Positions 8,957 to 60,322 of a DNA stretch of 64,000 bases are shown here, piece by piece. The DNA comes from Paenibacillus sp. (GTDB lineage Bacteria > Bacillota > Bacilli > Paenibacillales > YIM-B00363). Made by a program: the position numbers and the translations under genes. Numbering within the stretch: the first letter of the stretch is position 1; each line of letters starts with the position of its first letter. The stretch is from assembly GCF_035645195.1 (NCBI RefSeq), contig NZ_DASQNA010000006.1, positions 1-64,000 of the forward strand, read 5' to 3'. Below the pieces are notes generated by a model, which was not told where the DNA came from, did not search any database, and saw only the letters and a program-made list of their open reading frames with translations.

Positions 8957-8988
8957 TTGTTTCGGGAGAGCGGTCGGCAGGGGCGGAT

Positions 8989-9180
8989 GGCGGGCAGTAG
9001 GCGCAAAAATGCGGCTATTTGGCGTTTGGTGGGGCGGCTGGCGGGCAGTAGGCGCAAAAATGCGGCTATTTGGTGTTTGATGGGGCGGCTGGCGGGCAGT
9101 AGGCGCAAAAATGCGGCTATTTGGCGTTTGATGAGGCGGGTTGCGGGCAGTAGGCGCAAAAATGCGGCGAATTCACGGCA
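8989..9180 (+). repeat. Tandem array, 51-bp period, about 3.8 copies
   Basis: Copies begin at 8989, 9040, 9091 and 9142, exactly 51 bp apart. The conserved core is GCGCAAAAATGCGGCTATTT, followed by a GC-rich, more variable part. The core can fold as AGGCGCA-AAAA-TGCGGCT with one G-G mismatch, which resembles the perfect hairpin of the 56751-57160 array. The 51-bp length is divisible by three, so it opens spurious reading frames. No gene is supported between 8925 and 9254. Confidence 0.9.
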
Positions 9181-19734: not shown

Positions 19735-21129
19735 ATGAAGGGGAAAGGCGCATCGGAAACCCGGCCGCTTGGGGCTGCGGGTTCTATGAGTTTGTTTATG
19801 TTAACGTGGCCCATTTTCCTGGAGATGACGCTGTTCACGCTCATGGGCAGCGCGGACACGTTCATGCTGAGCGGCGTGTCGGATTCAGCGGTGTCCGGCG
19901 TCGGCGCGGCGAATCAATTTATTTTCGTCACCATTTTGCTGATGGAGGTCGTGGCGCACGGAGCGGCGATCGTCGTGTCGCAGTACCTCGGCTCGCGCAA
20001 ACCGGCGGAGGCGTCGCGCATCGCGGGGATCGCGATTTCGCTCAACGTAGGCGCGGGTCTCGCGATCAGCGCCGGGTACTTGCTGTTCGGGGACGCGCTG
20101 CTGCGCTCCATGAATTTGCGGGGCGACGTGCTGGCCCATGCGCAGACGTATCTCGCCATCGTCGGCGGGACGCTGGTGCTGCAGGCGGCCATTAATACGA
20201 TGGCCAGCCTTATCCGCGTCCACGGTTATACGCGGGAGTCGATGTTCGTGTCGCTCGGCATGAACGTGCTGAACGTGATCGGTAACTATGCGCTCATCTT
20301 CGGCCATTTCGGCGCCCCCGAGCTCGGCGTGGCGGGCGCGGCCGCGTCGACCGTATTGAGCCGGGCCGTCGCGGCGGCGGTGTTCTTGTGGATGCTGTAC
20401 CGCATCATGGAGGTGCGCATCCGGCCGCGGGACTACGTCTCTTTCTCGAAGGACTATATCGGCAAAATCGCGCGCGTCGGCGTTCCGTCGGCGGTCGAGC
20501 AAGTGACGTACCACGTTTGCCAGACGGTGTTCTTGTATTATGTGACGTATCTCGGAGCGATGGAGCTGGCCGCGCGGCAGTATGCGATCAACATCACGCA
20601 GTTTATTTACTTGTTCGCGGCCGCCATCGCGATGGGGACGGCGATCCTCGTCGGACGGTTGATCGGCGCGGGGCGCGCCGACGAGGCGTACAGCCGGGTG
20701 CTGCGAAGCTTGAAGTGGGGGCTCGGATTTACGGCGGCGGTCTGCTGCCTCGCGGTGGCGCTGCGGACGCCGATCGTCGAGCTGTTCACGGACGACCGGG
20801 GCATCGTCGCAATCGCGTCCCAAGTCATCCTGTGCAGCTTGTTGATCGAGCCGGGGCGCGTGTTCAATTTGGTGCTGATCAACGGCCTGCGCGCCGCGGG
20901 GGACGCCCAAATTTCCGTTTACATGGGCTTCGTGTCCATGGTCGGGGTAAGTTTGCCGCTCGGGTACGTGCTGACGTTCGAAGCGGGGCTCGGCCTCGTC
21001 GGCGTGTTCCTGGCGATCGCCGCGGACGAGTGGCTGCGCGGCATCGTCATGCTGTATCGCTGGCGCAGCCGGGCGTGGCAGGGGAAGGCGCTCGTTGCGC
21101 AGCCGGCGACGGACGCCGCCGCGACGTAG
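19735..21129 (+). CDS. MATE family efflux transporter
   Basis: 464 aa with 12 membrane segments in two homologous halves, characteristic of Na+ or H+ coupled multidrug exporters of the NorM/DinF group. Typical sequences are TWPIFLEMTLFTLMGSADTFMLS and MASLIRVHGYTRESMFVSLGMN. The ATG at 19735 is preferred (AGGAG 11 nt upstream); an in-frame GTG lies at 19678. Substrate unknown. Downstream lies the duplicated hairpin module. Confidence 0.93.
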   Translation: MKGKGASETRPLGAAGSMSLFMLTWPIFLEMTLFTLMGSADTFMLSGVSDSAVSGVGAANQFIFVTILLMEVVAHGAAIVVSQYLGSRKPAEASRIAGIAISLNVGAGLAISAGYLLFGDALLRSMNLRGDVLAHAQTYLAIVGGTLVLQAAINTMASLIRVHGYTRESMFVSLGMNVLNVIGNYALIFGHFGAPELGVAGAAASTVLSRAVAAAVFLWMLYRIMEVRIRPRDYVSFSKDYIGKIARVGVPSAVEQVTYHVCQTVFLYYVTYLGAMELAARQYAINITQFIYLFAAAIAMGTAILVGRLIGAGRADEAYSRVLRSLKWGLGFTAAVCCLAVALRTPIVELFTDDRGIVAIASQVILCSLLIEPGRVFNLVLINGLRAAGDAQISVYMGFVSMVGVSLPLGYVLTFEAGLGLVGVFLAIAADEWLRGIVMLYRWRSRAWQGKALVAQPATDAAAT

Positions 21130-21174
21130 CGCGGTACGGCCGCTTGCCGCGGTTCCGGCGCTGTGTCGCGGCTC

Positions 21175-21390
21175 GTGCGCGGAGATGTGTAGCCCCTACC
21201 CTTGTTATGGGAAGGGGCTACGCATATTAAGGGCATGGAGTATTCATCATGCCCCGGGTACCGCCGCCGCAGCGCGACTTGGGCGCGGAGATGTGTAGCC
21301 CCTACCCTTGTTATGGGAAGGGGCTACACATAATAAGGGCATGAAGTACTCATCATGCCCGGGGCTTGCCGCCGCAGCGCGAGACGGGAA
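21175..21390 (+). repeat. 106-bp tandem duplication, each copy with two hairpins
   Basis: Copies begin at about 21175 and 21281. Each has a 13-bp hairpin, ATGTGTAGCCCCT paired with AGGGGCTACRCAT, extended by CCC/GGG around a TTGTTAT loop, and then GGGCATG-N10-CATGCCC. Copy 1 has a G-T wobble where copy 2 has A-T, so the fold survives only in plus-strand RNA. No gene is supported between 21130 and 21446. Confidence 0.9.
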
Positions 21391-49980: not shown

Positions 49981-52900
49981 TTATTCCGTTGCGACCGACT
50001 GGTCCGCTTGCATCGTGACCGGCGAAATGCGGACGAAGTGAGCGTCGAGGTTTTCGAGCAGCTTCGCGACTTTCGCAGCGGCTTCCGCTTGGCCGGATTT
50101 CTCCAGCTCCTCGCGGTAGATGCCGAGCAGTTCGTTCAGGTCGGCGCGGCTCTTGTCGCCGAGCGCCGAGATGTTGACCTTCGCGCCCTTCGCGACGCGG
50201 CGCTTGATGGCCGCTTCGTCGAGGCCGAGTTCCGGCTGCAGGCGCTGGTAGATGACGCCGCCCGTCATACCGGCGCAAATCCATGGACCCGGATCGCCCA
50301 TGACGACGGCGCGGCCGTTCGTCATGTACTCGAACGCGAAGCCTTTCAGGTTCGCGCGGCCTGCCATGTTGCCGAGCTCGTCGCGGATCGGCCCTTCCAG
50401 CTCGCCGCCGAAGATGATGTCGGCGCCCGAGAGGCGGATGCAAGCGCGGGAGTCCGCGTTGCCCTGTACGATGAAGGTACCCTTCTGCGCGCCGTAGGCG
50501 AACGATTTGCCGACGGAACCGTTGATGAACGTCTTATGCTTGCTTGGCGCCTTCAAGATGGCGATCTTGCCGCCGAACGCCATTTTGCCTACGCCGTCTT
50601 CCGCGCCGCCGTGTACGGTGATGTCGACGCCGCGCGCGTTGAACGCGCCGAGGCCGTTACCCGGTACCGAGCCGTCCGTCAGCTCGATCGAGACGTTCGG
50701 AAGCTGGTCGTAGCTGCCGTCGAAACGGTCGCGAACGCGGTTCGACGAGAAGCGCGAGCCGACGATGCGCGTTTCGGCGCTGATTTTGCTCCAGCGGTGC
50801 TGGATCGGCGCTTCGAAGCTCAGCTTGCTCGGGTACATCGTCGCTTCCGCGCCGACGGCCGCGAGTACCGGCTCTGCCGAAACAGCCGCTTCTTGCGCGG
50901 ACTGCGAGATGAACTGGATCGGAGCCGGACGGAGCAATGCCGACAGGTCGATTTGCTCCAGCGCGTTCACCTGCTTCAGCAGGTCCGAACGGCCGACGAG
51001 ATCCTGTGCGTTCTTGAAGCCGAGCGCCGCGACGACTTCGCGGATTTCTTCGCCCATGCCCGAGAACAGGCGGACGAGCGCGTCGACCGCGTTGTCGTAT
51101 ACCCGCGGCACGAAGCGGCGAAGGCCTTTCTCTTCGGCTTCTTCCATCGAGTCGATCTGCGTCGCGATGCCGACGTGGCACGTATCCAAGTGGCAGCCGC
51201 GGCACGTCGTACAGCCGATCGCCTGCATCGAGATGGAACCGAAGCCGCAGCGGTTCGCGCCGAGGAGCATCATTTTCACGACGTCCGTGCCGGACTTGAG
51301 GCCGCCGTCGGACCACAGCTCGACGCGGTGGCGAAGGCCGGCTTCGATCAAGGCGACGTGCGCCAGCTTCGTGCCGATTTCCGTCGGGAGGCCGACGTGC
51401 TGCAGCGAGTGGACGCGCGCCGCGCCGGTGCCGCCGTCGAAGCCGGACAGCGTGATGACGTCCGCGCCCGCTTTGGCGACGCCGACCGCGATCGTGCCGA
51501 TGCCCGGAACGACCGGAACTTTGACGATGATTTTCGCTTGATGGTTGCTCGCTTCTTTCAGCTCGCTGATGATCTGCGCCAAGTCTTCGATCGAGTAAAT
51601 GTCATGGTTGTTCGAAGGCGAGATCAAGTCGGAACCGATCGTCGCGTTCCGCGCCGCGGCGATTTTCGCCGTAACCTTGGAGCCCGGCAGGTGACCGCCT
51701 TCGCCCGGCTTCGCGCCTTGACCGATCTTGATTTCAAGGAACGCTACCGCGTTCGCCAGCTCGACGTTGACGCCGAAGCGTCCCGAAGCGACCTGCGCGC
51801 CGCGCGTCCGCTTGTAGCGGCCGAGCATATCCTTGATTTCGCCGCCTTCGCCGTTCATCGTGACCATGTTGAGGCGTTCGCCGGCTTCCGCATACGCGCG
51901 GAACGCCGTTTCGTTCTGCGAACCGAACGACATGGACGAGATGAGCATCGGCAGCGAGTGATCGCCTACGCCGATGTTGACGTCCTTCGGATCGAGCGGC
52001 TTGCGGCCTTCCGACGCAGCCTTATCGAAATCGAAACCGGCTACGTGGCGGATGCTGATTGGATTTTTCTGCTCTTCCTCTTGCAGCTTCGCGCGGTAGT
52101 CCGCGTACGGAGCCGCGCCCGAAGCTGCGTCGCCGAGAGCTTTCCACATCCGCTGGAAGAAGCGGAAGTTTTTGCCCGGCTTCGCCTTCGGATTGTTATT
52201 GTAGTCCTCGTAGCGAGCAGCCGCGTCCTGCTCGAGCTTCGCGAAGCCCGTGCCGGCCGTGTCGCTGCCAAGGTAGTTGACGATATCGAGCACTTCCGCG
52301 ACCTCCGGCTGGAGACCGATGGAAGAGAAGAAACGCGTGTATCCGCGAAGCTCGTGCGTACCGATCGTCGAGATGACTTTCTCGAGACCTTTCTGCAGGG
52401 CCACGAACACCTTCTGCGCCGCAGGCGCGCCTTCTTTGGCCGACGCCGTCGCGAAGAGGGCGTACGGCGAAATCAGATCCGCGCCGAGGCCGCAGGCGAC
52501 CGCGATGTCATGCAGGTTCCGCACGGATGCGGAGCGGAGCACGATGGCCGTTTGGCGGCGGAGGTTGTCGCCTTGGCCGAGCTTCACGCTCTTCAGCGCG
52601 ATGTCGACGCGGGAAACCGCAAGGTGCGAGTCGACCCACAGGCGGTCGTTGCTGTTCGCTTCCGAGTCGTCGAGCACGAGCAAGCTCGCGCCGCCGCGAA
52701 CGGCTGCGATCGCGTCTTCGGCCAGCTTATCGAGCGCGGCTTTCAGCGATTCGCCGCGGCCGAACGTGAGCGACAGCGTCGCGACGGAGCCGGACTTCGA
52801 TTGCTCGAAGGCGGAGATGATTTGCTCGAGCGACGGTTGACCGATCGCTTGCAAGCTGCCTACGCCGTTGGAGCCTTCCAATACGAGCGGAGCCGGCAGT

Positions 52901-54522
52901 TCGATGCGGAGACGGCCGTCCAGCTCGCCGTAAATCGTCGGACGAGGGCCGAGCACGACGCGCGTGGAGAAGTGCTCCTGTTCGCGGTCGCGGTCGATCG
53001 CCGGGTTCGTGACGACGGCGACGCTCTCCTTAATATAGTCGGCGATGTTCTGGCGTTCCCAGTTGAGCGCCGCGAGCGGGCCGTCATGGCCGAGCGAGCG
53101 GATCGGCTCCGCGCCGGTTTCCGACATCGACTCGATCATTTGAATGCCTTCGCGATCCCAGCCCGCCGCCGAGTACAGCGCGTCCGTCACGACGACGTCG
53201 GCGTTCGGCTCGGCTTCCGGGAATTGGTTGTCGTAGAACAGCTGCTTGCGCAGACCGTTGAACTCGACGCGCTTCTTCGCGCGTTCGAGCACGATCGTTT
53301 GCAGCTCTTCGTACGGGATGACTTGCACATGCTCGCCGCGCGTCAGCACGACGCCGATTTTTTCGCCTGGGGCGATCGGTTTCGGATCGGCCACCATTTC
53401 GCCGACCGTGATGACGCCTTGCTCGGACGAGAAGTAGAGCGACGTTTCGCTTTCGACCATCCACAGCGGGCGGAGGCCGAGCGCGTCAACGCTGAATACG
53501 CACTCGTTGCCGTAGCGCGATACGATCGCTGCCGGACCTTGCGCGTAATGTCCCCAAATTTGGCGATAATACACGTAGAGGTCTTGCAGCTCCGGACGGA
53601 AGCCCTTCATTTCGTTGTGAATCGGTGGGAATACGAGCTCCATTGCTTCGAAATGCGAAAAACCGTGACGGTGGATGAACGTTTCGATCGTCCGGTTCAT
53701 ATCCTGCGAGTCGGAGCCGCCGTCGACGAGCGGAACGCCGATCATTTCGGCTTCGTAGCGCATCTTTTTGATCGTGTTGATTTCGCCGTTGTGGCCGAGC
53801 AGCGAGAACGGCTGTACGCGGAAGAAGCTCGACAGCGTGTTCGTCGAATAGCGGTTATGGCCGATCGTCACTTGCGCGGCGAACAACGGGTCTTGCGTAT
53901 CTTTGAAGTATTTCGGCAAAATGCTCGCGGAGCCCATCACCTTGTAAGCGGCGGTTACGTTGCTCAGCGACGCTACATGCACGTTGTATTTGCTTTCGAT
54001 GTCGACATGCAGCTCGAACAGATGGTCGGCGACATTGACGACTTCCTTCTCCGTGAGCGCCGCGACTTGCCAGAACGTCGGCTCGTCGTTGCGGCCGTTC
54101 GGGCCGAGGACGGAGCTGTTCGTTTGGTTTTCTTGCTCGAGCACGATCTTCACGCCGTACTGCGCGAACAGCTCGCGGATGCCCGCTTGCATGTCTGCGA
54201 CGGAGATGTCGAGTTTGCGCGGCACGAAAATGTGCGCGATCGAGAAACGGTCGTCGAACGCCAGCTGACCGTCAAGGCCTGCTTGTTCGAGCTTGCTTTG
54301 CCACAGAGCGCGCGGGATGTCGGTCAGAATGCCGCAGCCGTCGCCTTCTCCGTCGATAAAGCCGGAGCGGTGCTCCATTTTTACGAGGGCGTCGATCGTC
54401 TTTTGGATATTATCGCGGGACGGATGTCCGTTCTTCTCGATAATGCAAATGACGCCGCAGCTGTCGTGCTCTTCGAGCAGCAGCTGTTGGAACAAACCTT
54501 CATTCTTCATTGCTTGATTCAT
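49981..54522 (-). CDS. gltB: Glutamate synthase large subunit (GltB-type)
   Basis: 1513 aa. Domain order: class II glutamine amidotransferase with catalytic Cys22 after a short propeptide (EEHDSCGVICIIEKNG), central domain, FMN-binding synthase domain with the 3Fe-4S motif CTTCRGCHLDTCHVGIATQ (C-x5-C-x4-C), and the C-terminal GXGXG beta-helix. It transfers glutamine amide nitrogen to 2-oxoglutarate. Several signatures deviate from canonical GltB (GDGCGIL for GDGAGIL), and no gltD lies nearby, so it may be a paralogue. The ATG at 54522 is the assumed start; AGGAGGTGAG lies 22-26 nt upstream, with a palindrome between. An in-frame GTG at 54549 is too close to it. Confidence 0.9.
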   Translation of the reverse strand: MNQAMKNEGLFQQLLLEEHDSCGVICIIEKNGHPSRDNIQKTIDALVKMEHRSGFIDGEGDGCGILTDIPRALWQSKLEQAGLDGQLAFDDRFSIAHIFVPRKLDISVADMQAGIRELFAQYGVKIVLEQENQTNSSVLGPNGRNDEPTFWQVAALTEKEVVNVADHLFELHVDIESKYNVHVASLSNVTAAYKVMGSASILPKYFKDTQDPLFAAQVTIGHNRYSTNTLSSFFRVQPFSLLGHNGEINTIKKMRYEAEMIGVPLVDGGSDSQDMNRTIETFIHRHGFSHFEAMELVFPPIHNEMKGFRPELQDLYVYYRQIWGHYAQGPAAIVSRYGNECVFSVDALGLRPLWMVESETSLYFSSEQGVITVGEMVADPKPIAPGEKIGVVLTRGEHVQVIPYEELQTIVLERAKKRVEFNGLRKQLFYDNQFPEAEPNADVVVTDALYSAAGWDREGIQMIESMSETGAEPIRSLGHDGPLAALNWERQNIADYIKESVAVVTNPAIDRDREQEHFSTRVVLGPRPTIYGELDGRLRIELPAPLVLEGSNGVGSLQAIGQPSLEQIISAFEQSKSGSVATLSLTFGRGESLKAALDKLAEDAIAAVRGGASLLVLDDSEANSNDRLWVDSHLAVSRVDIALKSVKLGQGDNLRRQTAIVLRSASVRNLHDIAVACGLGADLISPYALFATASAKEGAPAAQKVFVALQKGLEKVISTIGTHELRGYTRFFSSIGLQPEVAEVLDIVNYLGSDTAGTGFAKLEQDAAARYEDYNNNPKAKPGKNFRFFQRMWKALGDAASGAAPYADYRAKLQEEEQKNPISIRHVAGFDFDKAASEGRKPLDPKDVNIGVGDHSLPMLISSMSFGSQNETAFRAYAEAGERLNMVTMNGEGGEIKDMLGRYKRTRGAQVASGRFGVNVELANAVAFLEIKIGQGAKPGEGGHLPGSKVTAKIAAARNATIGSDLISPSNNHDIYSIEDLAQIISELKEASNHQAKIIVKVPVVPGIGTIAVGVAKAGADVITLSGFDGGTGAARVHSLQHVGLPTEIGTKLAHVALIEAGLRHRVELWSDGGLKSGTDVVKMMLLGANRCGFGSISMQAIGCTTCRGCHLDTCHVGIATQIDSMEEAEEKGLRRFVPRVYDNAVDALVRLFSGMGEEIREVVAALGFKNAQDLVGRSDLLKQVNALEQIDLSALLRPAPIQFISQSAQEAAVSAEPVLAAVGAEATMYPSKLSFEAPIQHRWSKISAETRIVGSRFSSNRVRDRFDGSYDQLPNVSIELTDGSVPGNGLGAFNARGVDITVHGGAEDGVGKMAFGGKIAILKAPSKHKTFINGSVGKSFAYGAQKGTFIVQGNADSRACIRLSGADIIFGGELEGPIRDELGNMAGRANLKGFAFEYMTNGRAVVMGDPGPWICAGMTGGVIYQRLQPELGLDEAAIKRRVAKGAKVNISALGDKSRADLNELLGIYREELEKSGQAEAAAKVAKLLENLDAHFVRISPVTMQADQSVATE

Positions 54523-54528
54523 GCGTTC

Positions 54529-54544
54529 GGTCAGAATTCTGACC
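54529..54544 (-). promoter_or_regulatory. 16-bp palindrome between ribosome binding site and gltB start
   Basis: GGTCAGAATTCTGACC is a perfect palindrome lying between AGGAGGTGAG and the ATG. If folded as a 6-bp hairpin with an AATT loop, the effective spacing shrinks from about 26 to 10 nt. Confidence 0.55.
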
Positions 54545-54573
54545 CTCACCTCCTATGAGTATGGGTTCGGGTA

Positions 54574-54811
54574 TGCATAAATATGCAAACGCGCTGAATA
54601 TCAGCGCTGGTCCTTCGCGGCAAAGGTAGACAACGGAGCGGGGCGATTGCCAGAAACGGAATACGAGGCGTATGGCAACATCGCGAAGGAACCCGCGAAA
54701 AATGAAGGAAAAACGCGCCACCGCCGGAGAGTAAAAGTAGATATAGAATAACACGAATTTAACATGGCGACAATAAAGAAAAGGATGTCAAACGGGTTGT
54801 AAGCGTTTTTT
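54574..54811 (-). promoter_or_regulatory. gltB leader and promoter region
   Basis: Minus strand: -35 TTGTCG (54773-54768), 17 bp, -10 TATTCT (54750-54745), giving a leader of about 215 nt. The leader contains GCGCTGA-ATA-TCAGCGC (54591-54607) and TGCATA-TT-TATGCA (54574-54587) hairpins. A cre-like site TGTAAGCGTTTTTT (54798-54811, 12 of 14 consensus positions) lies upstream of the promoter. The rest of the 54550-54949 gap is AT-rich with no gene. Confidence 0.45.
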
Positions 54812-54949
54812 TAATGTATAAAAATATTTATAGCGGTGAATAATCATATTTTTTAACCGATGGTCTTTTCTTTTGGCCTAGAAGCGGCCTCTACTCTTGA
54901 TTTATATCATTAAAAGAGCAATATTTCACCATGTAGATTCAGACAATTT

Positions 54950-54982
54950 CGCCCCGGCGACGGTGAAACGTCGTCCGGGGCG
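54950..54982 (-). terminator. Terminator after hemL
   Basis: CGCCCCGG-C-GACG / CGTC-GT-CCGGGGCG stem with a 6-nt loop. On the minus strand it is followed by AAATTG, so the T-run is weak. Confidence 0.7.
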
Positions 54983-54991
54983 AATGTATGA

Positions 54992-56308
54992 TTATGAAAG
55001 TTTTGCGAATACGCGGCCGGCGGCGGCGATCGTCGCCTCGACGTCTTCTTCGGTATGGGCGGTCGTCAGGAACCAAGCTTCGTATTTCGACGGCGCGAGC
55101 AGGACGCCTTCGTCGAGCATACCTTTGAAGAACCGGCCGAACGCTTCGCCGTCCGTGTCCTGCGCCTCGTCGTAGTTCGTGACCGGGTGGCTGCAGAAGT
55201 GCGTAGAGAACGCGCCGCGCACTCGATTGATCGTGAGCGGCACGCGGTGCGACGCCGCGGCTTGCGCGAGGCCGTCGGTCAGCCTGCGCGCGAGGGCGTC
55301 GAGCCGCTCGTACGTGCCGGGGCGGCGCAGCTCGGCGACGCAGGCGAAGCCCGCGGCCACGCTGAGCGGGTTGCCGGCGTGCGTGCCCGCTTGGTATGCC
55401 GGGCCGAGCGGCGCGACCTGCTCCATGATGTCCGCGCGGCCGCCGTAGGCGCCGATCGGCAGGCCGCCGCCGATGATTTTGCCGAGCGCGGTCAGGTCCG
55501 GCGCGATCGCGGCGACTTCTTGCGCGTTGGCGCCTTCGAGGAAGGTGGACGCGGCGCCCCAATGGAAGCGGAACGCGCTGATCACCTCGTCGTAAATGAC
55601 GAGCGCGCCCGCTTCGTGCGCCAGCTTGCACAACCCTTCGAGGAAGCCGGGCTTCGGCTGCACGATGCCGAAGTTGCCGACGATCGGCTCGACAAGCACG
55701 GCGGCGGTTTCGGCGCCCCAGCGCTCTAACGCTTGCTTGAGCCCGTCGAGGTCGTTGAACGGCACCGTGATCACCTGCTCGGCGACGCCCTGCGGCACGC
55801 CGGCGCTGTCCGGCACGCCGAGCGTCGACGGGCCGGAGCCGGCCGCGACGAGCACGAGGTCGGAATGACCGTGGTAGCAGCCGGCGAATTTGATGATTTT
55901 CGTCCGGCCGGTGAAGGCGCGCGCGACGCGGATCGTCGTCATGACCGCCTCGGTGCCGGAGTTCGTAAAGCGCACTTTATCTAATGAAGGAATAGCTTCT
56001 TTCAGCAGCTTCGAAAACTCGATTTCGAGCTCGGTCGGCGTGCCGTACAAGGTGCCGGCTTCGGCGGCGCGGCGGATGGCTTCGGTGACGGCCGGGTGCG
56101 CGTGGCCGAGGATGATCGGGCCGTACGCCGCTAGGTAGTCGATGTAGCGGTTGCCGTCGGCGTCCCAGAAGTGGGCGCCTTGGCCGCGCTTCATGAACAC
56201 GGGGGCGCCGCCGCCGACGGCTTTGAACGAGCGCGACGGGCTGTTGACGCCGCCGACGATATGCTTGAGCGCTTCTTGGTAGAGAGCTTCGGAGTTGGTA
56301 CGGTTCAT
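54992..56308 (-). CDS. hemL: Glutamate-1-semialdehyde 2,1-aminomutase
   Basis: 438 aa, fold-type I PLP enzyme converting glutamate-1-semialdehyde to 5-aminolevulinate for haem synthesis. Motifs: [60 protein letters not shown] and the PLP lysine Lys277 in [15 protein letters not shown]. It is not in a hem cluster. In B. subtilis the second copy, gsaB, lies close to bcp (ygaF), and bcp is 5 kb away here, so this is probably the GsaB paralogue. AAAGGTGTG lies 9 nt before the ATG. Confidence 0.96.
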
Positions 56309-56364
56309 CGGTGAAACACACCTTTCGGTTTATGTATGGCGGCCTCCCCTTCGGCCGGGGGTTG

Positions 56365-56715
56365 GGCCGAATGGTGGGGCGGATAAGGGACAAGTGTTCG
56401 TTACGGCCGGCGATGGCGGTCCGCGGCGGGCGAATAAGGGACAAATGTTCGTTAGAGCCGGCAATGACGGTCCGCGGTGGGCAAATAAGAGACAAATGTT
56501 CGTTAGAGCCGGCAATGACGGTCCGCGGCAGGCGAATAAGTGACAAATGTTCGTTAGAGCCGGCAATGACGGTCCGCGGCGGGCGAATAAGGGACAAATG
56601 TTCGTTAGAGCCGGCGATGGCGGTCCGCGGTGGGCAAATAAGAGACAAATGTTCGTTAGAGCTCGCGTTTACGGTCCGCGGCGGGCTAATAAGGGACAAA
56701 TGTTCGTTAGAGCTT
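56365..56715 (+). repeat. Tandem array A, 51-bp period, 7 copies
   Basis: The core GACAAATGTTCGTTAGAGCC recurs with its ACA at 56390, 56441, 56492, 56543, 56594, 56645 and 56696, exactly 51 bp apart. The rest of the unit (GGCAATGACGGTCCGCGG, then GGGCGAATAAG) is also conserved, at about 85-95% between neighbours. The first copy is diverged upstream. No gene is supported here. Confidence 0.95.
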
Positions 56716-56734
56716 GCCCTGTGATCCCGCGGTC

Positions 56735-57165
56735 TCGGTCCGCCGAGGGCGAATAGCCGCAAAACTGCGGCTAAAGGCCGCGCGCCCGGTCCGCCGAGGG
56801 CGAATAGCCGCAAAACTGCGGCTAAAGGCCCCGCGCCCGGCCCGCCGAAGGCAAATAGCCGCAAAACTGCGGCTAAAGGCCGCGCGCCCGGCCCGCCGAA
56901 GGCGTATAGCCGCAAAACTGCGGCTAAAAGCCGCGCGCCGGGCCCGCCGAAGGCGTATAGCCGCAAAACTGCGGCTAAAGACCGCGAGCCCGGCCCGTCG
57001 GGGGTGAATAGCCGCAAAACTGAGGCTAAAGACCGCGAACCCGGCCCGCCAGGGGCGAAAAGCCGCAAAACTGCGGCTAAAGGCCGCGCGCCCGACCCGC
57101 CGGGGGCGAATAGCCGCAAAACTGCGGCTAAGGGGCGCGCGGCCTCGGCCCGCCGCCGGCGAACA
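56735..57165 (+). repeat. Tandem array B, 51-bp period, 8 full copies plus a partial one
   Basis: Units begin at 56751, 56802, 56853, 56904, 56955, 57006, 57057 and 57108, exactly 51 bp apart, with a decayed ninth at 57161. Each contains the hairpin TAGCCGCA-AAAC-TGCGGCTA (8-bp stem, 4-nt loop; one copy has TGAGG, another AAGCCGC) and a GC-rich part with GCCCGGCCCGCCGAAGG. The two arrays fill most of the 952-bp gap between the LCP gene and hemL. No gene is supported. Confidence 0.95.
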
Positions 57166-57172
57166 AGCGCAA

Positions 57173-57212
57173 AGGCACATAACCGCAGCGCTCCCGCGCT
57201 CGTTATGTGCCT
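57173..57212 (-). terminator. Terminator after the LCP gene
   Basis: AGGCACATAAC / GTTATGTGCCT 11-bp stem with an inner GCGCT/AGCGC-type helix. On the minus strand TTTGCGC follows. Confidence 0.7.
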
Positions 57213-57260
57213 CTGCCGCAGCCGCAGCCACGGTTGCAGCCGTCGCCGCAGCCCGCTGCG

Positions 57261-58295
57261 TTAGCCGTCGCTGCCAGCGCCGGGCTCGTTCCCGAGCGCG
57301 GCGTCGTTCGGATTGACCGCCGGCTCCTCCGCGGGCGCCGGGGCTTCCGCGAACTTCTCCTCGATGAACTCCTTCAGGTCGTCCGCGTCCACCGTCAGCA
57401 CCGAAGCGCCGCCGACAGAGGTTTCCCGCAGCAGCTCGGGCGGCGGAAGCTGTACGCCGACCACCTCGTTCGCCTTCGCTTCGAAGCCGAGAGCGCCGAG
57501 CTTCAGCATCTCGGTCACGGTCAAGTTCGACTCGATGTACGGGTCGATCGCCGCCAAAATTTGCGGCAGCCGAATGAGCGACGTCGACGTCTGCAGCTTC
57601 TGCGCGACGGCCGTCATGAACTTGCGCTGCCGCTCGGTGCGCGAGAAATCGCTGAGCGCGTCGTGCCGGAACCGGACGTACTGCAGTGCCGTGCGGCCGT
57701 CCATATGCTGCAGGCCTTCCTTCAGGTTGATGTCGTATTCCGGCCCGTCCGCCTTCGTCGTGTACTTCATATCCTTCTCGACGTAAAACTCGATGCCGCC
57801 GATTTCGTCGATCAAATGGATAAAGCCCTCGAAGTCGGTGTATACGTAATACTGGATATCGAGGCCGGTCAGTTCGCCGACCGTGCGCATCGCGAGGTTC
57901 GGGCCGCCCAGCACGAGCGCCGAATTGACGCGATCCGAGCCGTGACCCGGAATGCGCACGTACGTATCCCGCAGCAGCGAGAACAAATGCGCCTTCTTCG
58001 TGACCGGATCGAGCGAGGCGATCATGATCGTGTCCGAACGCGGCACCTGGTTTTTCGCGAGGCCGCGCGAGTCCCCGCCGAGCAGCAGGATGTTCACCCG
58101 CTCGGTGCCTTCCCACTTGGGAGGGACGTAGGCGACCTCCTGAGGCTTCACGGTGCCCGGCTGCGGGTTAAACTGCTTGAAACGAGAATCATCTTCGTTC
58201 TCATTGAAAAAATCGTACAAAGAATATCCATAATAGCCAACGACGCCCAGCGCCAATACGCCGATCGTCAATACGGCGGTTCGCAGCCATTTCAT
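57261..58295 (-). CDS. LCP (LytR-CpsA-Psr) family cell-wall polymer ligase
   Basis: 344 aa. Short cytoplasmic N-terminus, one membrane segment (about 7-27), and an extracellular LCP domain with NILLLGGDSRG, VPRSDTIMIASLDP (conserved Arg/Asp for pyrophosphate binding), SLLRDTYVRIPGHGSDRVNS and ALQYVRFRHDALSDFSRTERQR. These enzymes attach teichoic acids or other glycopolymers to peptidoglycan. The C-terminal tail is acidic and Pro/Ala-rich. GGAGGAAAAG precedes the ATG. Divergent from the ABC exporter operon. Confidence 0.93.
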   Translation of the reverse strand: MKWLRTAVLTIGVLALGVVGYYGYSLYDFFNENEDDSRFKQFNPQPGTVKPQEVAYVPPKWEGTERVNILLLGGDSRGLAKNQVPRSDTIMIASLDPVTKKAHLFSLLRDTYVRIPGHGSDRVNSALVLGGPNLAMRTVGELTGLDIQYYVYTDFEGFIHLIDEIGGIEFYVEKDMKYTTKADGPEYDINLKEGLQHMDGRTALQYVRFRHDALSDFSRTERQRKFMTAVAQKLQTSTSLIRLPQILAAIDPYIESNLTVTEMLKLGALGFEAKANEVVGVQLPPPELLRETSVGGASVLTVDADDLKEFIEEKFAEAPAPAEEPAVNPNDAALGNEPGAGSDG

Positions 58296-58345
58296 GTTCG
58301 CTTTTCCTCCGTCAGGGGTAGTGGTATCATTATCATCAAGTTCCG

Positions 58346-58364
58346 GGCGCTTTAAGCGCCTTTT
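58346..58364 (+). terminator. Terminator-like palindrome in a divergent intergenic region
   Basis: GGCGCTT-T-AAGCGCC followed by TTTT, oriented towards the ABC operon at 58497. There is no plus-strand gene upstream within 15 kb in this direction other than across opposing genes, so it may be a leader attenuator or block antisense transcription. Confidence 0.4.
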
Positions 58365-58496
58365 CCGCGTGCGCCTTAATAAAAAATAAACGACGGCGTC
58401 ATAGCGGAAGTTGCAAGCCTTAAAGTATTATAGCGGTAAAATGTTAACCGCATCAAGGAAAGCGATGGAACGAACCGGATAAGGAGAGATCGGACG

Positions 58497-59531
58497 ATGC
58501 TGGCCATCGATGTAGAAAAGCTGCGCAAACAATTCCGGATCCAAAAAAGCCGGGAAGGGCTCAAGGGCGCGCTGCAAGATTTATTCCGCCGCGAATACCG
58601 AGAGGTGACGGCGGTCAACGATATCAGCTTTCAAATCCCGAAGGGCGAAATTTGCGGGTATATCGGCGAGAACGGCGCCGGCAAATCGACGACGATCAAA
58701 ATGTTGACCGGCATCCTCGTGCCGACGTCGGGACGCATCGTCGTGAACGGCTATGTGCCGTTCCAAGACCGCGAAGCGTTCGTGCGCGGCATCGGCGTCG
58801 TGTTCGGGCAGCGCAGCCAGCTGTGGTGGGACATCGGTGTCATCGAGTCGTTCAACCTGCTGCGCAAGGTGTACCAGGTGCCGGACCGCGATTACAAGGA
58901 GCGCCTGGACGAGCTCGTGCAGCGCCTCGATCTTGGCGACCTGCTGAACCGCCCGGTGCGCAAGCTGTCGCTCGGGCAGCGGATGCGCTGCGAAATCGCC
59001 GCCGCGCTCATCCATAACCCGTCGATCCTGTTCCTCGACGAGCCGACGATCGGTCTCGACATCGTCGTCAAAACCGAAATTCGCGAGTTCCTCAAATCGC
59101 TGAACGAGCGGTACGGCACGACGATTCTGCTCACGACGCACGATCTGCAGGACATCGAAGCGCTCTGCTCGCGGGTCATCATGCTCGACGACGGGAAAAT
59201 CATTTACGACGGCGGACTCCAGCAGCTGAAAGATACATGGGGAAGAGGCAAAGAGATCGTGTTCCAATTCGCCTCCGGCATGCCGCTGAGCGAGCTGGAG
59301 CGCCTTACCGAAGGGCTCGACGTCCGCTGGACGCGGGAGAACGATTACACCGCCCGAGCGGCGCTGCCGCGCGGGGCCAACGTGTCCGATGCGCTCGGGC
59401 GCGTCGTCGGCGCGGCGAACATTCGCGACATCCGGATCGAAGAGACGAACACGGACGAAATCGTTCGCGAAATTTACAAATCCGGTTCCGCCGAAAAGCC
59501 CGAGCCCGCAGCCGCGGGGGTCGCGACATGA
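58497..59531 (+). CDS. ABC-2 type exporter ATPase
   Basis: 344 aa. Walker A GENGAGKST, Q-loop region VVFGQRSQLWWD, signature LSLGQRMRCE, Walker B ILFLDEPTIGLD, H-loop LLTTHDLQD. The FGQRSQLWWD segment is typical of the ATPases paired with DUF990-type ABC-2 permeases. The C-terminal ~90 residues form a regulatory extension. AAGGAG lies about 10 nt before the ATG. The stop overlaps the first permease gene (ATGA). Substrate unknown. Confidence 0.94.
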   Translation: MLAIDVEKLRKQFRIQKSREGLKGALQDLFRREYREVTAVNDISFQIPKGEICGYIGENGAGKSTTIKMLTGILVPTSGRIVVNGYVPFQDREAFVRGIGVVFGQRSQLWWDIGVIESFNLLRKVYQVPDRDYKERLDELVQRLDLGDLLNRPVRKLSLGQRMRCEIAAALIHNPSILFLDEPTIGLDIVVKTEIREFLKSLNERYGTTILLTTHDLQDIEALCSRVIMLDDGKIIYDGGLQQLKDTWGRGKEIVFQFASGMPLSELERLTEGLDVRWTRENDYTARAALPRGANVSDALGRVVGAANIRDIRIEETNTDEIVREIYKSGSAEKPEPAAAGVAT

Positions 59532-60322
59532 CGTCCGCCTATTTGGAGCTCATTCGCATACGTTTTCTCATGATGCTCGCGTACCGCGTAAATTATTACA
59601 GCGGCATCGCCATCTACGCGATCAACATCGGGGCGTACTACTTCGTCTGGTCGGCGATATTCGCGGGCAAGCCGGAGCTCGGCGGCTTTACGGTCGCCCA
59701 AATGACGACGTACATCGCGGTATCCTGGATGGCGCGCGCGTTTTATTTCAACAACCTCGACCGCGAAATATCGAACGAAATCCGCGACGGCAGCGTGGCG
59801 ATCCAATTTATCCGGCCGTACCAATACGTCGTCGTCAAAATGATGCAAGGCCTCGGCGAGGGGTTGTTCCGGCTGATCATGTTTTCGGTGCCGGGCATGC
59901 TCGTCGCGAGTCTGCTGTTTCCGGTGTCGCTGCCGCGCGATCCGGCGGTATGGGGCTTGTTCCTGGTCATGCTGTTATTTAGCTTCTTAATTAATACGCA
60001 GATTAATATTTTAATCGGTTTAGGAGCGTTCTTCCTCGAAAACAGCGAAGGCCTCATGCGCATGAAGCGCGTCGCCGTCGATTTGTTTTCGGGGCTGATC
60101 ATCCCGCTGTCGTTTTTCCCGGGCTGGGCCGAAACGCTGCTGAAGCTGCTGCCGTTCCAGGCGATTACGTATTTGCCGGCGACCGTCTTCACCGGGAGGA
60201 CCACGGGGGACGCGGCGCTGGAAGCGCTCGGCGTGCAAGCGCTATGGTTCGTCCTGCTCGTCGGGCCGCTCGTATGGCTGTGGCGGCTGGCGCGAAACCG
60301 GCTGTTCGTGCAAGGAGGATGA
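59528..60322 (+). CDS. ABC-2 family permease (DUF990-like)
   Basis: 264 aa, six membrane segments. The pattern FNNLDREISNEIRDGSVAIQ and FIRPYQYVVVKMMQGLGEG is characteristic of the permease that pairs with a DUF990 partner. The ATG at 59528 overlaps the ATPase stop. The next gene follows after 4 bp, so the three encode one exporter, with the two permeases probably forming a heterodimer. Confidence 0.9.
   Translation: MTSAYLELIRIRFLMMLAYRVNYYSGIAIYAINIGAYYFVWSAIFAGKPELGGFTVAQMTTYIAVSWMARAFYFNNLDREISNEIRDGSVAIQFIRPYQYVVVKMMQGLGEGLFRLIMFSVPGMLVASLLFPVSLPRDPAVWGLFLVMLLFSFLINTQINILIGLGAFFLENSEGLMRMKRVAVDLFSGLIIPLSFFPGWAETLLKLLPFQAITYLPATVFTGRTTGDAALEALGVQALWFVLLVGPLVWLWRLARNRLFVQGG

Follow-up and report, generated by a model that had tools for sequence, protein, structure and literature searches.

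REP elements and the BIMEs that they form, known from E. coli, Xanthomonas and Stenotrophomonas, are the closest described systems to the repeats reported here. In one account (PMC2817692), REP/BIME palindromes occur in clusters, have species-specific sequences and form hybrid clusters of two types in which palindromy is preserved; REPs within BIMEs are regularly spaced, and in Stenotrophomonas BIMEs the segments between REPs are non-homologous and vary substantially in length. For P. fluorescens SBW25, a report (PMC3116915) describes tandem arrays of GI and GIII REPs, two REP types whose distances are fixed at 112 and 72 bp. A 2025 REP survey describes E. coli REPs without clear clustering or periodicity, and Paenibacillus is not named in its text (PMC12306157).

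The arrays described here resemble REP/BIME in being intergenic, in consisting of imperfect palindromes and in occurring in many copies (184 palindromes at 21 array places in the source genome). They are likewise clustered, specific in sequence to a species, and in places mix two palindrome types within one cluster without loss of palindromy. In contrast to the Stenotrophomonas BIMEs as that paper presents them, the distance between palindromes is nearly constant here while linker sequence is unlike. They also differ from REP/BIME in having no fixed GTAG start (a variable base precedes TAG, and type A carries TAAG) and in units that run in one orientation instead of alternating. With REPINs and the SBW25 arrays they share a doublet as unit and two palindrome types in tandem at fixed distances. 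However, REPINs are RAYT-linked and mostly inverted doublets, whereas here the palindromes are each their own complement and recur as direct repeats, not as the two mutually inverted REPs of a singly dispersed doublet. The SBW25 distances are given for a single kind of array from a single strain; here about 51 bp recurs in several genera. Mycobacterial MIRU/VNTR loci are intergenic tandem repeats of roughly similar size that form a single related sequence family, and we know of no sequence-independent palindrome spacing among them. The literature that we searched held no description of arrays like the present ones, and we file them as a new variant within the intergenic palindromic repeats, not as a member of the REP family.

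Arrays of the window and of the source genome

The window, the whole stretch of 64,000 nucleotides analysed from the 5.95-Mb genome of a Paenibacillus species (G000), holds two adjacent tandem arrays of differing sequence between an LCP gene and hemL, as the initial annotation had claimed. Tandem Repeats Finder confirmed both, at 56377-56713 (6.6 copies) and at 56736-57163 (8.4 copies), each with a period of 51 and 0% indels. Read unit by unit, positions 56376-57160 comprise seven units of sequence A, then eight units of sequence B and a decayed ninth, all of 51 bp. Array A (56376-56732) carries the palindrome TAAGGGACAAATGTTCGTTA and variants of it, and in 7/7 units positions 4/17 form a G-G mismatch; its seven palindromes start at 56384, 56435, 56486, 56537, 56588, 56639 and 56690 (i.e. 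56384 + 51n). Array B (56733-57160) carries the palindrome TAGCCGCAAAACTGCGGCTA from 56754 to 57130, with eight palindromes starting at 56754 + 51n and the decayed unit after them. The 51-bp step holds within A and within B but not across the A/B junction (56690-56773), where the last A palindrome and the first B palindrome are 64 bp apart. The gap is bounded by hemL (54992-56308, minus strand), whose start (56308) faces array A, and by the LCP gene (LytR_cpsA_psr, PF03816; 57261-58295, minus strand), whose 3' end (57261) adjoins array B; the name hemL is that of the initial annotation, and the family, class-III aminotransferase (PF00202), was assigned from Pfam.

Tandem Repeats Finder gave an additional 51-bp array in the window (8980-9168, 3.7 copies), between Ddl and UvdE genes, and its palindrome TAGGCGCAAAAATGCGGCTA has a G-G mismatch at 4/17. 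The palindromes of A, B and this third array are about 20 bp long with TA at either end. The hairpin that had been singled out in B, TAGCCGCA-AAAC-TGCGGCTA, is exact in 6/8 units and one base off in 2/8; allowing ≤3 mismatches, 12 copies occur in the window, 4 of them inside the third array, where shuffles lead one to expect 0.02 for the window. It is not special to B, however, since A and the further arrays that were read are also palindromic. The linkers of A and B are partly common (GGGCGAATA, CGGYCCGC), and the two arrays are built on one anatomy, a palindrome plus a linker. Intergenic palindromic tandem arrays of period 106 are also present in the source genome and in G001 (window 21129-21389, L105 5606-6153 and, in G001, L128 11092-11616).

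Searching the source genome by consensus returned 72 and 39 hits with E ≤ 10, of which the weakest are chance. With ≤2 mismatches, the type-A palindrome had 126 matches per strand (control, 1) and the type-B palindrome had 82 on one strand (control, 18). In the stretches read, type A makes up 13 runs. Counting a palindrome if at least 6/9 pairs were complementary, we found the 184 palindromes, of about 20 bp and a few of them chance, at 21 places, which may be fewer since arrays at contig ends are possibly halves of one locus. Neighbouring palindromes are exactly 51 bp apart in 135/163 cases, 102 bp in 13 and 204 bp in one; C37 contains a 102-bp higher-order repeat in which palindromes are still 51 bp apart. 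Where the palindrome type changes, distances include 64, 39, 62, 72 and 78.5 bp, the 78.5 of C40 and of C38b being entered once; left out as junctions were 18.5, 32.5, 76.5 and 103.5 (chance palindromes) along with 50, 101, 103 and 238.

Arrays of other periods, which the initial annotation had set against its own reading, exist but are a minority in the sequence sampled. In 544 kb taken from contig C7 (to 400 kb), C39 (four stretches) and the window, of which C7 and the window were already known to hold arrays when chosen, 7/11 intergenic tandem arrays of period ≥24 are 51-bp based (one scored as 102), and the remaining 4/11 have periods of 106, 106, 127 and 30; coding arrays in the same 544 kb are 51-bp based in 0/12 cases. 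We rejected a coding tandem repeat, and with it the possibility that the arrays are remnants of a known one, since the arrays of the window are crossed by ORFs but by no called gene, and the coding repeats in the 544 kb have other periods.

We compared orthologous sites in close relatives. The hemL-LCP site of G002 carries two palindromes (TAAGCGCGAAAACGCGCTTA) that are 51 bp apart, that of G004 a single imperfect palindrome, that of G003 a period-52 array of the 21-bp palindrome TAACCGGAGTTTCTCCGGTTA just past the LCP gene, and that of G001 other sequence and no array; in G005 the hemL and LCP genes lie apart from each other. The G004 gaps orthologous to the array at 8980 and to C40 both hold no array, and the G001 gap orthologous to C42, a 51-bp array in the source genome, holds the 106-bp palindromic array L128. 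Hence, arrays turn over between sister species, with orthologous sites that are empty, single, doublet or occupied by a different array. Type-B pairs were found in G001 and G004, spaced 51 bp, and the strict type-A pair pattern, with spacing free, had matches in 0/148 other genomes. Two further arrays of these relatives were noted: in L142 6300-6531 of G004, each 51-bp unit has two different, immediately adjacent palindromes at distances of 20 and 31 bp, and L130 7318-7600 of G001 is a 52-bp repeat with a 21-bp palindrome whose adjacent copies occur in both orientations.

Palindrome spacing across the order

We searched 392 genomes of the order, which is probably Paenibacillales to judge from the presence of Paenibacillus sp. 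NEAU-GSW1, for the pair pattern TAAG-N12-CTTA at spacings of 36-66 bp and found pairs in 42/392, the source genome included. There were 66 pairs in G000, 59 in G001, 127 in G176, 94 in G187, 78 in G328 and 53 in G219, and the reversed control seldom had more than 1 or 2 pairs per genome and at most 5. Several TAAG-N12-CTTA matches are non-palindromic repeats or chance, and chance seems to account for those in G196, G102 and G122. The inner palindrome sequence is GGCC..GGCC in G219, GGCTGAAATCAGCC in G187, GGGGAAAAATCCCC in G256, GTGC..GCAC in both G340 and G289, and GGTAC..GTACC in G042.

Searches were repeated over 51-81 bp in 29 genomes and over 20-50 bp in 30. The long and short ranges gave 123 versus 4 pairs in G176, 75 versus 3 in G328, 40 versus 13 in G219 (the 13 at 48-50), 50 versus 25 in G001, 2 versus 8 in G152 and 2 versus 4 in G086. 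In G187 the counts were 6 versus 89, with the short ones at 49-50, mostly 50, among the pairs listed, and in G230 they were 0 versus 21, all 21 at 36-50 bp by counts alone. The short pairs of G230, G152, G086 and G001 are known as counts per range, not as individual spacings. Loci were read, one to a few each, in G328, G001, G321, G152 and G086, and in part in G176, G187 and G340; G230 (21 pairs) and G216 (1) enter by count alone.

Spacings were then taken from 41 sources, comprising 40 of the 42 matching genomes (without G000, G216 and G230), G004 and Paenibacillus sp. NEAU-GSW1. A palindrome with TAAG/CTTA ends was accepted if it had at least 2/4 inner pairs; with a single mismatch in the ends, 3/4 or more were required. 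Under this rule, neighbouring palindromes lie 20-100 bp apart in 24/41 sources. After similar linkers were merged within each genome, and with linker unlikeness judged per genome, we found 63 pairs with mutually unlike linkers, 49 of which are 49-52 bp apart; without the best-sampled genome, G219, the count is 27/40. Such a pair is present in 18/41 matching genomes other than G000. The loci came from pair patterns of spacing 20-81 bp, which selects for pairs and not for 51.

The other unlike-linker spacings are 23 (two), 35, 36, 54, 60, 61 (three), 62 (two), 72 (two) and 100 bp. The rule drops spacings of 61 in G304, G389, G086 and G152, of 63 in G341 and of 40 in G145 and G196; the 41-source count does not include spacings of 63 and 80 from G187 or a single 61 from G289. 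Spacings of 51 alternate with 61-62 in G042, Paenibacillus sp. NEAU-GSW1 and G383, run 51/72/51 in G181 and are followed by 113 in G328. In the genomes read, distance is kept, on evidence about as clear as sequence alone can give. In G145 (L190 1541-1868), the palindrome TAAGCGCGTTTTCGCGCTTA occurs three times at 154-bp steps, about 3 x 51.

We examined 13 pairs at 51 bp picked for unlike linkers and found that 10 linkers match neither flank beyond shuffles (one of the 10 equals the shuffle maximum); therefore, these 10 are without trace of tandem duplication. In 3/13 pairs, all from G219 (L254, L260 and L263), the linker resembles its flank beyond shuffles. The initial annotation had proposed that length itself is selected or is fixed by the copying mechanism. 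Recurrence of 49-52 bp in loci and species with unlike palindromes and linkers gives good support to a length that is selected or fixed, but copying alone is insufficient for the 10/13 linkers above. Within 22 runs of the source genome, mean diversity is 0.066 for palindromes and 0.145 for linkers, and palindromes are less diverse than linkers in 19/22. Palindrome and spacing look constrained and the rest free.

The related proposal that a 51-bp period puts all hairpins on one face of the DNA holds only roughly, since at 10.5 bp per turn 51 bp make 4.86 turns, and each unit shifts by about one seventh of a turn. Outside the main class, spacings of 54-90 bp fall at 60-63 in 6/9 cases (binomial 1e-4); hence, 60-63 is the commonest spacing after 49-52, and it fits one more helical turn. 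Support for phasing is modest: p is 0.037 for the 13 spacings obtained by the rule, and including five junctions of the source genome brings it to 0.013. Periods of 9.5, 12 and 13 have a higher Rayleigh value than 10.5 does, no single period stands out, and spacings of 23, 35, 36, 78.5 and 80 are off phase. Helical phasing is an attractive reading, not proof.

Gene context and rejected identities

Gene contexts were taken from a purpose-written codon-usage gene caller, and some of the neighbours are weak calls. In the source genome, 10 array places lie between tandem genes, 5 between convergent and 2 between divergent genes, and 4 at contig ends; the corresponding numbers in G219 are 10, 1, 0 and 5. 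For both genomes together, 2/28 arrays lie between divergent genes, whereas 56/197 gaps of at least 100 bp are divergent (p = 0.019), and the convergent excess is not significant (p = 0.11). Arrays of the source genome lie outside strong gene calls, with weak ORF calls overlapping C38a (two), C5b and C30; in G219, weak ORF calls overlap L257 and L264. Contig ends at 4/21 array places suggest that the arrays may account for some assembly breaks.

The neighbours are mostly ordinary metabolic or cell genes of differing families (20/35 own flanking genes were scanned). Homologues of purN and purH, which are usually adjacent within one operon, are separated by 51-bp arrays of two palindrome types (L158 3060-3611), and another array separates RadC and MreB homologues. 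An AadA-like nucleotidyltransferase gene (L162 2887-3702) ends at array C40. We rejected a regulatory operator, since arrays are rarer in divergent gaps and the named neighbours are of differing families.

Several described classes of element were also rejected. A CRISPR array was rejected because the linkers repeat along with the unit and are not unique spacers. Intrinsic terminators fail on the count of terminator-like sites, 1 in 56200-57400 versus 2.3 in shuffles, and a known RNA family was rejected on the absence of Rfam matches (0 in window 50000-60000 at E ≤ 1 and 0 in 12 loci at gathering score). Y1_Tnp (PF01797; RAYT) is absent from the source genome and was found in 1/11 array-rich genomes (G176) and 5/11 array-poor ones, with a positive E. 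coli control and with two of the array-rich genomes incomplete (G219 70%, G002 81%); on this distribution we rejected a RAYT-driven REP. The arrays had no match in plasmid or phage collections.

Explanations for the fixed distance

Our preferred reading, plausible but tentative, is that these are intergenic REP/BIME-like arrays whose working unit would mostly be at least two palindromes about five helical turns apart, acting as putative protein-bound sites at a fixed helical phase. Each palindrome would be a double-stranded DNA site for a putative dimeric protein, and neighbouring dimers would touch or be bridged when at fixed helical phase. Unequal recombination would expand and homogenise the arrays, binding would keep palindrome and distance, and the palindromes would come to differ between genomes as the specificity of the protein, or the protein in use, changes. 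The candidate protein may serve the cell (nucleoid architecture, insulation or topology) or may move the element. BIMEs bind gyrase. We lean slightly towards an architectural or host-neutral role. Several palindrome types at one spacing in one genome would need several proteins or loose specificity. Also against this reading are the modest phase statistics and the off-phase spacings, the 3/10 isolated palindromes of G340, the pairing patterns (below) that favour a stem, and the short spacings of G187 (mostly 50 bp), of G230 (all 21 pairs at 36-50 bp) and of 8 pairs in G152, 4 in G086 and 25 in G001 (20-50 bp). It is possible, though we think it doubtful, that the arrays reveal a DNA-measuring system in which a protein of this order reads pairs of palindromes that keep a constant helical distance, either about 51 bp or a turn longer, with a sequence preference that changes fast between species and only symmetry and distance kept.

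We consider it somewhat unlikely that the doublets are instead mobile, with a putative nuclease or recombinase that grips both palindromes and moves them, so that 51 bp would be the enzyme's measure and the arrays would be selfish and REPIN-like without RAYT. Such movement would suit the 13 runs of type A in a genome whose type-A pair pattern recurs in 0/148 others, the two orthologous gaps of G004 without an array, and the single isolated palindrome among 66 in G219, whose contigs were mostly picked for their arrays. It fits poorly with the 3/10 palindromes that are isolated in G340 and with Y1_Tnp, which is missing from the source genome and found in 1/11 array-rich versus 5/11 array-poor genomes, G219 and G002 being incomplete. 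Ordinary minisatellites, functionless descendants of an ancestral 51-bp tandem repeat whose period was inherited through slippage and gene conversion, are unlikely. The arrays are homogeneous internally, the linkers of A and B are partly common, and the three flank-like linkers of G219 are what such descent would leave; however, one spacing recurs with unlike linkers in many sources (unlikeness being judged per genome), differing palindrome types hold that same spacing, palindromes are conserved relative to linkers, a second spacing class lies at 60-63, and the 102-bp repeat of C37 retains 51-bp palindrome steps.

Hairpins in RNA or in a single strand, spaced about 31 nt and acting in processing, mRNA stability or termination, are very unlikely, even though the stems are of 8 bp and the loops of 4 bases. 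In 15 type-B arrays (14 in G000 and 1 in G001), position 3 of the half-sites covaries (13/15 complementary vs 8.2 expected). In G219, positions 8/13 covary (35/48 vs 24.0 expected) and positions 9/12 avoid pairing (3/48 vs 16.9 expected). These three patterns favour a stem with a four-base loop. Position 4 of the same type-B arrays, by contrast, varies independently (6/15 complementary vs 5.9 expected), in favour of recognition of the double strand. Mismatches at 6/15 of type A, taken on one strand, are G-T in 9/13 arrays and A-C in 1/13, an excess that also suits RNA but for which shared ancestry could account. Against RNA, the six type-A arrays in tandem gene contexts are split evenly, three sense and three antisense to the genes, which speaks for double-strand recognition. 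Moreover, whole arrays are fixed for G-G mismatches, and neither unit A (z -0.06) nor the unit at 8980 (z -0.13) folds better than its shuffles, with B at z -1.42. The shortage of terminator-like sites, the lack of Rfam matches and the array between the purN and purH homologues also weigh against RNA hairpins.

In several related species, the spacing is close to the same while the palindromes and the intervening DNA differ, which suggests that distance itself is read in the cell. If the spacing is kept while both motif and spacer are replaced, this would rank among the few examples in which distance is what a genome conserves, and the arrays would open a direct way into an architectural or mobile system not yet described.
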